From: Flavobacteriales bacterium
GTDB taxonomy: Bacteria; Bacteroidota; Bacteroidia; DT-38
Direction: 5' to 3'
Length of the DNA stretch: 32,108 nucleotides
NCBI GenBank assembly: GCA_013214205.1
Contig: JABSPQ010000417.1
Coordinates: forward strand, 1-32,108
The position numbers and the translations under genes were made by a program. Shown here one piece after another: positions 28,137-32,108 of the stretch. Numbering within the stretch: position 1 is the first letter of the stretch; every line of letters begins with the position of its first letter. The notes under the pieces were generated by a model. The model was not told the DNA's origin, made no database searches, and was given only the letters and a program-made list of their open reading frames with translations.

Positions 28137-28152
28137 ATTGGGCGACACTCCA

Positions 28153-29139
28153 ATGAAAATATCGGTTTTAGGTGGTGGTAGTTGGGCAACAGCTATCGTA
28201 AAAATGCTGCTCAACAATGCCGACCAAGTTGGTTGGTGGATGAGAGATGAATCCGCTATCGATCACATAAAAACCTATAATCAAAATCCCAAATATTTGA
28301 GTTCGGTAGAGCTGGACCCAAATAAATTGAATCCTTCGGCTAATTTGTCTGAGGTGGTAGCTAATTCTGACGTAATTATTTTAGCGATTCCGGCGGCTTT
28401 CTTAAACGATTCGTTGAAAGATGAATCCGAAGATTTGTTTGAAGGAAAGATTGTTTTTTCTTCAATTAAAGGAATAGTACCAGAGAGCAACGAAATAGTT
28501 GGAGAATATATCCATAATAAATTCAATGTAGATTTTAAGAATGTTGGAGTAATCTCAGGGCCTTGTCATGCCGAGGAAGTAGCGTTAGAAAAATTATCAT
28601 ATCTCACAGTTGCTTGTCAGAATGAAGAGAATGCTGAGAATTTAGCTAAAATGATTTCATGTAGGTACATCAAAACAACTACTTCCGACGACATTTATGG
28701 AACAGAATACTCAGCTGTTTTAAAAAATGTATTTGCTTTGGCCAGCGGAATTTGTCATGGTTTAAACTATGGCGATAATTTTCAAGCTGTTTTAATCTCT
28801 AACGGAATTCAAGAAATTAAGCGATTTGTAGATACTGTTCATCCAATAGATAGAGACATTAAAAGTTCTGTTTACCTCGGAGATTTACTGGTAACAGCCT
28901 ATTCTCAATTTAGTAGAAATAGAACTTTTGGTAATATGATTGGCAAAGGATACTCTGTTAAATCGGCTCAAATAGAGTTAAACATGATTGCGGAAGGCTA
29001 CTATGCTACTAAATGCATCAAAGAAATCAACGAAAAATACAAGGTTGATATGCCTATTACAGATGCGGTTTACAACATTTTGTACGAAAAGATTTCTCCA
29101 ATTATGGAGATGAGATTGCTTTCGGATAAATTGTCTTAA
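28153..29139 (+). CDS. gpsA: Glycerol-3-phosphate dehydrogenase [NAD(P)+]
   Basis: A 328-aa enzyme that reduces dihydroxyacetone phosphate to sn-glycerol-3-phosphate, the backbone for phospholipids. The N-terminal nucleotide-binding loop is ISVLGGGSWATAIVKML. ISGPCHAEEV and the catalytic Lys region EYSAVLKNVFALASG are present. I chose the ATG at 28153; a TTG at 28138 would add GDTP before it without family support. It is coupled to lysS. Downstream is a structured repeat, then convergent uvrC. Confidence 0.95.
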   Translation: MKISVLGGGSWATAIVKMLLNNADQVGWWMRDESAIDHIKTYNQNPKYLSSVELDPNKLNPSANLSEVVANSDVIILAIPAAFLNDSLKDESEDLFEGKIVFSSIKGIVPESNEIVGEYIHNKFNVDFKNVGVISGPCHAEEVALEKLSYLTVACQNEENAENLAKMISCRYIKTTTSDDIYGTEYSAVLKNVFALASGICHGLNYGDNFQAVLISNGIQEIKRFVDTVHPIDRDIKSSVYLGDLLVTAYSQFSRNRTFGNMIGKGYSVKSAQIELNMIAEGYYATKCIKEINEKYKVDMPITDAVYNILYEKISPIMEMRLLSDKLS

Positions 29140-29173
29140 TTTTTTTCTGAGTCGCAAGATGAAGTTAGAGGCA

Positions 29174-29427
29174 AAGGCTTTTGTTTTAGGATGTTTTTTT
29201 CTGTACCATGACCTAAAGGACATGGTAAAATCATTTCGATTGAGTTTGTTCTTTTTGCCTTTGCCCTTTAAGTCAATGCGAAAATAAGTGGAGTATTTTG
29301 CGGTAAAAGGTTTGTAAAAAGGGAGTTTCTGTTTTGAGCTGTCTTTTCTGTACCATGACCTAAAGGACATGGTAAAAGACATTTCGTTTGAGTTTGTTTT
29401 TTTTTGCTTTCGTCCTTTAGGTCAAGG
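29174..29427. repeat. Tandem 147-bp-offset repeat with nested palindromes
   Basis: Two diverged copies lie head to tail. An identical 34-nt core occurs at 29197-29230 and 29344-29377, an offset of exactly 147. Each core holds a 24-nt palindrome (29204-29227 and 29351-29374): outer arms TACCATG / CATGGTA, an A-A mismatch, then CC-TAAA-GG. About 45 nt further, each copy has a second arm. In copy 2, TGACCTAAAGGAC (29356-29368) is perfectly complementary to GTCCTTTAGGTCA (29412-29424); in copy 1 the matching arm at 29263-29275 has two mismatches. Flanks are similar but diverged and T-rich on the plus strand. No T-run follows the palindrome directly, so it is not a standard terminator. It fills the 319-bp gap between gpsA and uvrC. 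Confidence 0.85.
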
Positions 29428-29458
29428 GAAGAAGAGTTTTGTAGTTGATCATTCAGGT

Positions 29459-31246
29459 TCAGGCAAGAAGCGCCTTCCTAACCACCTCTGCTTTTTTCTT
29501 ACCCACAACAGCTTCAATTTCTTCTAAATTGGCCTCCTTAATTCGCTTAACAGATTTGAATGTTTTGAGCAGGTTTTGAGCCGTAGTTGGCCCAATGCCT
29601 TCAATATCGGTAAGACCAGATGTAAAAGCAACCTTCGATCTTCTATTCCTGTGATGCTTGATTCCAAAGCGATGCGCTTCGTTTCTTAAAAACTGAATGA
29701 TTCGCAGCGTCTCCGATTTTTTATCTAAATAAAGCGGAATAGAATCATCTGGGTAATAAATTTCCTCAAGCTTTTTAGCTATTCCGATAATGGCAATTTT
29801 ACCTCTTAGGTTTAACTTCTCTAGGCTTTTAACCGCCGAACTCAATTGTCCTTTGCCGCCATCAACAAGAATTAATTGAGGTAAATTCTGTCCTTCTTTC
29901 AATAAACGGCCATACCTCCGCTCAATTACCTCTTCCATCGACGCGAAATCATTAGGCCCTTCAACCGTTTTTATATTAAAAATTCGGTAATCTTTTTTGG
30001 CTGGTTTTACGTCTTTAAAAACCACACAAGCAGCTACTGGAAAGCTCCCTTGAAGGTTGGAACAATCAAAACATTCAATGTGTTCGGGTAATTCCGACAA
30101 ACGAAGTAACTCCTTCATCTCTTCTAGAATCCTTGTTTCTCGTTTTTTAGGAATGTAACTATTGCGCTCCTTTTGCTTATCAAGCATGTAGAATTTCGCG
30201 TTTCGTGTAGATAAATCAAGCAAAGTTTTTTTGTCGCCTTTAATCGGTACGATACATTTAACGTCGGGTATTTCCACATCGATTTCAAAAGGGATCAACA
30301 TTTCCTTTACATCGCTATCAAATCGAAGTCTCAAATCAGCAATTCCAAACTCCAACAACTGTTTGTCATCTTCGCCAAGTTTCTTTTTGAGTTCAAGTGT
30401 ATGAGCCTGAATAATTGCTCCGTTGTTAATGCGCATGTAGTTGACGTACGCAAAATTTTCCTCCGAAATAATTGTGAAAACATCGATGTTGTTAATCTTA
30501 GGATTAACCACCGTAGATCTCGATTTATACTTTTCGAGCGTCTCAATTTTATCCTTAATCAACTGCGCACTTTCAAATTCTAAATCCGCGGAATGTTTGT
30601 CCATCAACTCCTTTAGTTGCTTAATTACATTGGAGAGATTGCCTTTGATGATGTTCCTTATTTCCTGAATACTTTGGTTGTAATCTTCCTCGTTTTGATG
30701 ATTGGCACAAGGGCCAAGGCAGTTTCCAATATGGTATTCTAAGCAAACTTTAAATTTTTCTTTTTTAATGTTGTCTTCCGACAGATTGTAATTGCAATTT
30801 CGGATAGGATACAACTGAAACACCAAGTCCAGAACGGTTTTCATCATTTTAACCGATGCATATGGGCCAAAATACTCAGAACCATCTTGTTTTAAAGTAC
30901 GGGTAGAAATTACCCTCGGAAAGCGTTCTTTTTTAATGCAAATCCAAGGAAAAGTTTTATCGTCCTTAAGCTGTATGTTGTATCGCGGTTGATGCCTTTT
31001 AACCAATGAATTTTCGAGAAGTAAAGCCTCATACTCGCTGTCAACAATGATTGGATTTACATCATGTATGTTTTTTACTAGCAGAATGGTTTTACCGCTT
31101 TCATGTCTTCCTTTGTTGAAATAAGATGCAACTCGTTTTTTGAGAGATTTGGCTTTTCCAACATAAATGATGATTCCTTCCTTATCCAGAAATTGATAAA
31201 CACCTGGTTTATCTGGTAACGATTTTATTTTTCCTGACAGATCCAT
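29459..31246 (-). CDS. uvrC: Excinuclease ABC subunit C
   Basis: A 595-aa nucleotide-excision repair nuclease that cuts both sides of a lesion after UvrAB. The N-terminal GIY-YIG domain is KPGVYQFLDKEG..IIYVGKAKSLKKRVASYF (about 12-45). A Cys-rich stretch is CLEYHIGNCLGPC, the UvrB-binding UVR motif lies near 200-240, and the C-terminal RNase H-like part has ECFDCSNLQGSFPVA and LILVDGGKGQL. The end has two helix-hairpin-helix repeats (TSGLTDIEGIGPTTAQNLL; ANLEEIEAVVGKKKAEVV). Length and all domains are normal. Confidence 0.97.
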   Translation of the reverse strand: MDLSGKIKSLPDKPGVYQFLDKEGIIIYVGKAKSLKKRVASYFNKGRHESGKTILLVKNIHDVNPIIVDSEYEALLLENSLVKRHQPRYNIQLKDDKTFPWICIKKERFPRVISTRTLKQDGSEYFGPYASVKMMKTVLDLVFQLYPIRNCNYNLSEDNIKKEKFKVCLEYHIGNCLGPCANHQNEEDYNQSIQEIRNIIKGNLSNVIKQLKELMDKHSADLEFESAQLIKDKIETLEKYKSRSTVVNPKINNIDVFTIISEENFAYVNYMRINNGAIIQAHTLELKKKLGEDDKQLLEFGIADLRLRFDSDVKEMLIPFEIDVEIPDVKCIVPIKGDKKTLLDLSTRNAKFYMLDKQKERNSYIPKKRETRILEEMKELLRLSELPEHIECFDCSNLQGSFPVAACVVFKDVKPAKKDYRIFNIKTVEGPNDFASMEEVIERRYGRLLKEGQNLPQLILVDGGKGQLSSAVKSLEKLNLRGKIAIIGIAKKLEEIYYPDDSIPLYLDKKSETLRIIQFLRNEAHRFGIKHHRNRRSKVAFTSGLTDIEGIGPTTAQNLLKTFKSVKRIKEANLEEIEAVVGKKKAEVVRKALLA

Positions 31247-31632: not shown

Positions 31633-32108
31633 TTGAGTAAAAGAAATAGTTTATTGGAATTCTTTGAGGATTTAGAAGATCCAAGACGTAATAAATGTAA
31701 AAAACATCTTCTATTGGATATTGTTGCAATATCAGTTTGCGGAGTTATCTGTGGAGCAGAGTCATGGGATGAAATAGAAGATTATGGTAACATCAAGTAC
31801 GATTGGTTAGCGACCTTCTTGTCTTTACCAAATGGTATTCCATCACATGATACTTTTAATCGAGTCTTTAGCATTTTGTGCCCATAAAAATTTGAAGTTT
31901 GCTTTGGTCAATGGGTGGCTTCCTTATCTAATTTATTAGAAGGAGAAGTAGTAGCTATTGATGGTAAAACAATAAGAGCAGCAAAAGTTAATGGTGTCTC
32001 ACCTATTCATATGGTTAGTGCTTGGGTCTGTGAAAGTAACTTAGTGTTGGGGCAGCAAAAAGTTGGAGATAAAACCAATGAGATAAGCGCAATTCCAAAT
32101 TTAATAGA
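31633..32108 (+). pseudogene. ISAs1-family transposase, interrupted, 5' part
   Basis: From a TTG at 31633 the frame reads SKRNSLLEFFEDLEDPRRNK and HLLLDIVAISVCGVICGAES, the N-terminal domain of ISAs1-family transposases, and passes GIPSHDTFNRVFS. It then meets TAA at 31885-31887. The same frame goes on without a shift as KFEVCFGQWVASL, then the start of the DDE catalytic domain (VVAIDGKTIR, with the first catalytic Asp) to the window edge. A single C-to-T change (CAA to TAA) explains the stop. It is therefore probably inactive. It could still be made if the stop is read through, for which I see no signal. It shows no relation to the IS21 remnant at the other end. Confidence 0.85.

Follow-up and report, generated by a model that had tools for sequence, protein, structure and literature searches.

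A species-restricted family of REP/REPIN-like palindromic repeats represented in the gpsA–uvrC spacer of a Flavobacteriales bacterium

Within the window, which is the whole stretch of 32,108 nucleotides analyzed here, the ORF ends place gpsA (NAD-dependent glycerol-3-phosphate dehydrogenase; Pfam PF01210 and PF07479) at 28138..29139 on the plus strand and its convergent neighbor uvrC (excinuclease subunit C; Pfam PF08459, PF01541, and others) at 29459..31246 on the minus strand. The 319-bp spacer between the convergent stop codons (29140..29458) has no counterpart in the congener used for comparison. Identical 34-nt stretches were found in this spacer at 29197–29230 and 29344–29377, offset by 147 as stated in a preliminary description of the locus. 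Each contains TACCATGaCCTAAAGGaCATGGTA, and the 24-nt palindrome attributed to the core is indeed present in both copies but is imperfect, folding with 7 outer pairs, one A·A mismatch, 2–3 inner pairs, and a small loop. The flanks had been considered diverged, which is true of the DNA upstream of the core, unrelated between the two copies (37%), whereas the 60 nt 3' of the core agree at about 75% once 1-nt indels are allowed (33% ungapped). The pairing of the palindrome with a second arm was reproduced, as GTCCTTTAGGTCA at 29412–29424 pairs with copy 2 at 13/13 positions and copy 1 pairs at 11/13, and the four 13-mer matches with at most 2 mismatches exceed the number in every one of 100 shuffles (mean 0.63).

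An alignment of inverted-type units and matches to two covariance models, R1 (hairpin and 3' flank) and R2 (hairpin only), indicate that the window contains two inverted doublets side by side, with hairpins at 29201 (+), 29253 (−), 29348 (+), and 29402 (−). Unit 1 (29197..29305, plus strand, right edge approximate; R1 match 29192–29250, E 1.4e-13) consists of the CTGT-tagged hairpin A, the linker CATTTCGATTGAGTTTG, a minus-strand hairpin C, and a tail, and unit 2 (29344..29452, plus strand, right edge approximate; R1 match 29339–29398, E 3.5e-14) is organized in the same way. Hairpin A of unit 1 (29204..29227, plus strand) is formed by TACCATGaCCTAAAGGaCATGGTA with a covarying stem, has CTG(T) on its 5' side and AAA on its 3' side, and is matched by R2 at 29201–29230 with 43.4 bits; hairpin A of unit 2 (29351..29374, plus strand; R2 match 29348–29377, 43.4 bits) is identical to it. 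Hairpin C is decayed in unit 1 (29253..29283, minus strand; R2 15.3 bits, E 0.028), where it includes the 11/13 arm; in unit 2 (29402..29431, minus strand; R2 22 bits, E 1.9e-4) it includes the 13/13 arm. The second arm is thus complementary, as described, but is half of a separate minus-strand hairpin of the same family that had been missed.

The suggestion that the repeat belongs to a dispersed, non-autonomous family was borne out by searches of the 5.1-Mb genome. The core TGACCTAAAGGAC occurs 26 times with at most 1 mismatch, as compared with 3 occurrences of a reversed control pattern, and around most of these matches the stem letters vary and nevertheless pair (ACCATG/CATGGT, GCCATG/CATGGC, GCCCTG/CAGGGC, ACCACG/CGTGGT, and GCATCG/CGATGC). 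R1 detected 20 copies at E<1e-5, and R2 detected 43 hairpins at E<0.01, distributed over about 28 sites. The conserved core is CCTRAAGG, and alignments A1 and A3 give CTGT as the 5' foot and AAAA as the 3' foot. Covariation in the local stem is strong: the 14 copies found first show 13 double-change cells as compared with 4.2 in shuffles, and 26 hairpins of both kinds show 37 as compared with a shuffled mean of 10.8, with double changes in 6 of the 8 pairs and a covariation of 0.524 versus 0.191. In the latter set 91% of the cells are paired, a percentage raised by the loose pairing filter through which part of the set was chosen. The signal was lost when the partner was slid by 1–3 columns. 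An Rfam covariance-model search gave no match for the repeat, neither at the gathering score nor at E up to 1, and a known Rfam RNA was dropped as a candidate. No published description of the motif or family was found in the literature on the motif and on palindromic repeats of Bacteroidota.

Hairpins of the family tend to occur in pairs, as 33 of 45 have a neighbor within 130 nt (random mean 0.9). Spacings are mostly fixed, at 87–91 or 100–101 nt in direct doublets (n=11, range 87–101) and at 51–54 nt in inverted ones (n=4), so that most doublets are arranged head to tail; the unit measures about 110–130 bp in all. These data do not support the earlier view of a unit organized around two competing hairpins, as covariation favors the local stems only and most doublets are direct and lack a perfect long pairing. 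Across five aligned inverted units the long-range stem, whose arms lie 43 nt apart, shows zero double changes. Where alignment column 18 changed from T to C, its local partner (column 31) changed to match and its distant partner (column 86) did not. A separate double change is present within hairpin C, at columns 67–91 of L058. For copy 2, predicted folding energies favor the long fold in RNA (−39.8 versus −27.7 kcal/mol for the local one) and are close in DNA (−16.1 versus −14.4); for L050, L056, and L058 the folds were unconstrained ones. The CCTRAAGG core is common to all hairpins, which allows every inverted doublet to snap back on itself, and the long pairing is a by-product of two same-core hairpins placed head to head. 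According to the folding predictions, it would be possible and energetically favored in RNA for inverted units, with no sign of selection for it. Direct doublets, which are the majority, cannot form it perfectly. The simplest reading is that the conservation of the core stems from the hairpins themselves. More generally, hairpins that seem to compete at a locus can result from the presence of a mobile palindrome in inverted copies.

According to crude ORF calls, no strong copy lies within a long ORF. Of the 26 copies, 18 come after a gene on the same strand, 15 of them at most about 76 nt from its stop codon, and the remaining 8 are not located behind such a gene. Four copies (L045, L056, L057, and L058) directly follow terminator-like hairpins with T-runs. 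The element itself is not an intrinsic terminator, in agreement with the preliminary description, as no T-run comes right after the stem, which on the plus strand is preceded by TTTT and followed by AAAA, and no terminator was predicted at the site. Integron attC sites, recognizable by conserved GTT/AAC ends, were also rejected, since such ends were not seen. At two unrelated sites, L044 and L045, about 260 bp are common, and the left edge of this shared stretch is exactly TGTGCCC, the foot of hairpin A. The composite carries a hairpin-GGCAAAAGG-GCATTTCGTTT module on the left, and at the other end the identity stops within an inverted hairpin that has this GGCAAAAGG...GCATTTCGTTT module too. 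The pattern suggests that a composite unit moved, with one of its edges at the hairpin foot.

Outside its own genome, the family was not convincingly detected. R2 gave no match at E<0.01 in the single congener compared, where the one match of E 0.29 is at chance level, and the covariance model gave nothing convincing in 40 relatives and a sample of 295 genomes of the class. An exact degenerate pattern, which copies with changed stems would escape, had no match in 84,980 species genomes and nothing convincing in viral contigs, and BLASTN against phages and plasmids was likewise unconvincing. The congener keeps the order lysS, gpsA, uvrC (identities of 85, 76, and 87% over the aligned parts), but its gpsA and uvrC (locus L100) meet tail to tail with overlapping stop codons and no spacer, and therefore the 319-bp spacer is lineage-specific. 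A role as a conserved control element for gpsA or uvrC, which had been proposed, is contradicted by this arrangement. Other sites are also free of the element: at L051 the congener genes abut (TGA TTA) as compared with 265 bp in the repeat-bearing genome, at L057 the same gene is followed in the congener by a terminator but by no element, and at L045 it has a terminator without the element as far as its contig reaches, about 225 nt behind the gene. L040 was left out of this comparison, as a different gene is present there in the congener. As the family is absent from the other class genomes sampled, gain is simpler than loss in the congener; gain of the repeats in their own lineage would therefore be the simpler reading, with loss in the congener possible given a single outgroup.

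REP-like elements are best described in Proteobacteria, and Bacteroidota examples are termed atypical and are little characterized. The family described here is real, species-restricted, and REP/REPIN-like. Like the REPINs of Pseudomonas, which are inverted REP doublets (PMC3116915), it is intergenic, has a doublet as its apparent unit with short fixed spacing, occurs in tandem clusters, and would form hairpins in single-stranded DNA. It differs from them in its mostly direct doublets, with a minority of four inverted ones (51–54 nt), in its size of about 43 hairpins as compared with more than 1000 16-mers (PMC3116915), in its core and tag, and in that no RAYT is flanked by the family. With REPs and BIMEs associated with TnpA-REP (RAYT), including those of Bacteroidota subclass 2.6 (PMC6006769), it shares an imperfect palindrome with an inner mismatch, a short conserved foot, and many intergenic copies. 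GT[AG]G is absent from the family as it is from subclass 2.6 repeats, and class 3 repeats also lack it (PMC6006769). Whereas canonical REPs carry GT[AG]G, the foot of this family is CTGT (3' foot AAAA), and the single RAYT of the genome is accompanied by another repeat, confined to its own locus. The family is an imperfect palindrome in the range of 20–65 nt in many intergenic copies, as expected of a REP, but neither GT[AG]G at the 5' foot nor a RAYT gene flanked by repeat copies was found. Both features define canonical REPs, and the family is therefore not classed as REP in spite of its REP-like anatomy. Non-autonomous IS200/IS605-type (PATE-like) elements carry two same-orientation subterminal hairpins about 90–100 nt apart. 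The direct doublets resemble such elements, but the IS200-type elements of the same genome carry other end hairpins.

A search with Y1_Tnp (PF01797) returned six matches in the genome, and no family hairpin lies beside any of these genes, the flanks of which were checked for the core. The sole RAYT of the genome (L039 on contig C280; 182 aa, 103.5 bits with NF047646 at a cut-off of 80) has the motifs NHLH and YIHQNP, which fit subclass 2.6, a Bacteroidota group for which these motifs are listed and in which the repeats are of an atypical sort without GT[AG]G (PMC6006769). This RAYT is located within an array of direct repeats of about 230 nt (L039:800–2420), with at least 4 partial copies on both sides; these occur nowhere else in the genome and are unlike the hairpin family. 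Gene and array together make up a compact REPtron like the atypical ones of Bacteroidota, and since the flanking repeats are different ones, the flanking test fails to link L039 to the hairpin family. The repeat-free congener has no such RAYT and only one other Y1 protein. On contigs C140, C274, and C291 (L035–L037), IS200-type transposase genes are cut at the contig starts, which is what the collapse of multicopy elements during assembly should produce, and have upstream hairpins of the CCCCGAGG/CCTCGAAG types. The fragmented assembly (464 contigs) may hide the mobilizing partner.

The repeat is probably a short non-autonomous mobile DNA, REP/REPIN-like in its working, whose unit is a doublet of covarying hairpins at fixed spacing (probability roughly 0.75). 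The sequences themselves show that the hairpins are dispersed, lie between genes, covary in their stems, form doublets of fixed spacing, and are restricted to one lineage, that sites in the congener lack the spacer, and that L044 and L045 share an edge at the hairpin foot. The family would have spread within one species lineage into gene ends, with some copies directly behind a terminator T-run. By analogy with REPs and REPINs, its hairpins would probably be recognized as folded single-stranded DNA, and an enzyme supplied in trans might cut near the hairpin foot, the selected feature being the local fold and the core. We infer, tentatively and at slightly less than even odds, that this enzyme is of the HUH/Y1 type. 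Against mobility stand the lack of a linked enzyme and of a GT[AG]G tag and the predominance of direct over inverted doublets, and no target-site change or excision was seen for the family. A sharper and compatible form of the mobile reading, a genuine REP family served by a subclass 2.6 RAYT, be it L039 working in trans or another that was lost or is missing from the assembly, appears rather unlikely; the NHLH and YIHQNP motifs, the lack of GT[AG]G in repeats of that subclass (PMC6006769), and the absence of such a RAYT from the repeat-free congener speak for it, but L039 is flanked by its own unlike repeats and no family copy adjoins any Y1 gene found. Still more doubtful is a REP-like family that spreads as direct doublets, whose two fixed spacings differ by about one helical turn, that favors gene ends and the T-runs of terminators, and that is moved in trans by a non-neighboring enzyme, maybe by no known RAYT.

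An RNA element at mRNA 3' ends (a stabilizer, processing signal, or attenuation signal) in which both competing folds are functional could account for the 18 of 26 copies 3' of same-strand genes, 15 of them close to the stop codon, for the covarying stems, and for the predicted stability of the long fold in RNA of inverted units. We consider it improbable, as the long pairing shows no compensatory change (T18 to C being matched at 31 and not at 86), direct doublets predominate, 8 of 26 copies lie elsewhere, Rfam gave no match, and gpsA/uvrC of the congener have neither element nor spacer. Equally improbable is that the repeat is a MITE descended from a classical DDE transposon, with the hairpins in its inverted ends: the L044/L045 composite, with its left module and similar inverted right module, has this appearance, but terminal inverted repeats are missing from the direct doublets that predominate, target-site duplications were not recognized, and a non-systematic look brought up no DDE element with these ends. 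With the mobile, REP/REPIN-like reading preferred, this is a defined, recently spread family for which a consensus, a covarying fold, the spacing of the unit, lineage-specific sites, and a putative left edge are available, and such a family from Bacteroidota offers a concrete test case for the question of which enzyme mobilizes repeats of this kind.

Several other repeats were observed in the same genome. GCATTTCGTTT occurs 28 times (L071–L098), as compared with 6 occurrences of a reversed control. Several unrelated hairpins have it immediately on their 3' side, namely those of the mobile-hairpin family and of the CTCCCC, CGTC, and CCTGAA types; it might serve a number of intergenic repeats as a common tag or target. 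CGTC-tagged palindromic repeats are intergenic palindromes also reported in Bacteroidota (PMC3733652) and similar in this to the hairpin family, which differs by its core and by the lack of a CGTC end. Look-alikes (GAGATC...GATGACG type) share spacers with the family at L051, L089, and L094 and are joined to GCATTTCGTTT in L089 and L094. A second palindromic repeat, CAAATTCAAGTTTGCAACTTGGATTT (CAAGTTTGCAACTTG), is found near family members at L024, L026, L044, L045, L068, L079, and L081 and is part of the L044/L045 composite. In the window, 31633–32106 holds the start of a transposase gene (PF13808, DDE_Tnp_1-associated) that has an in-frame stop codon at 31885–31887, runs off the contig end, and looks like a broken insertion sequence.
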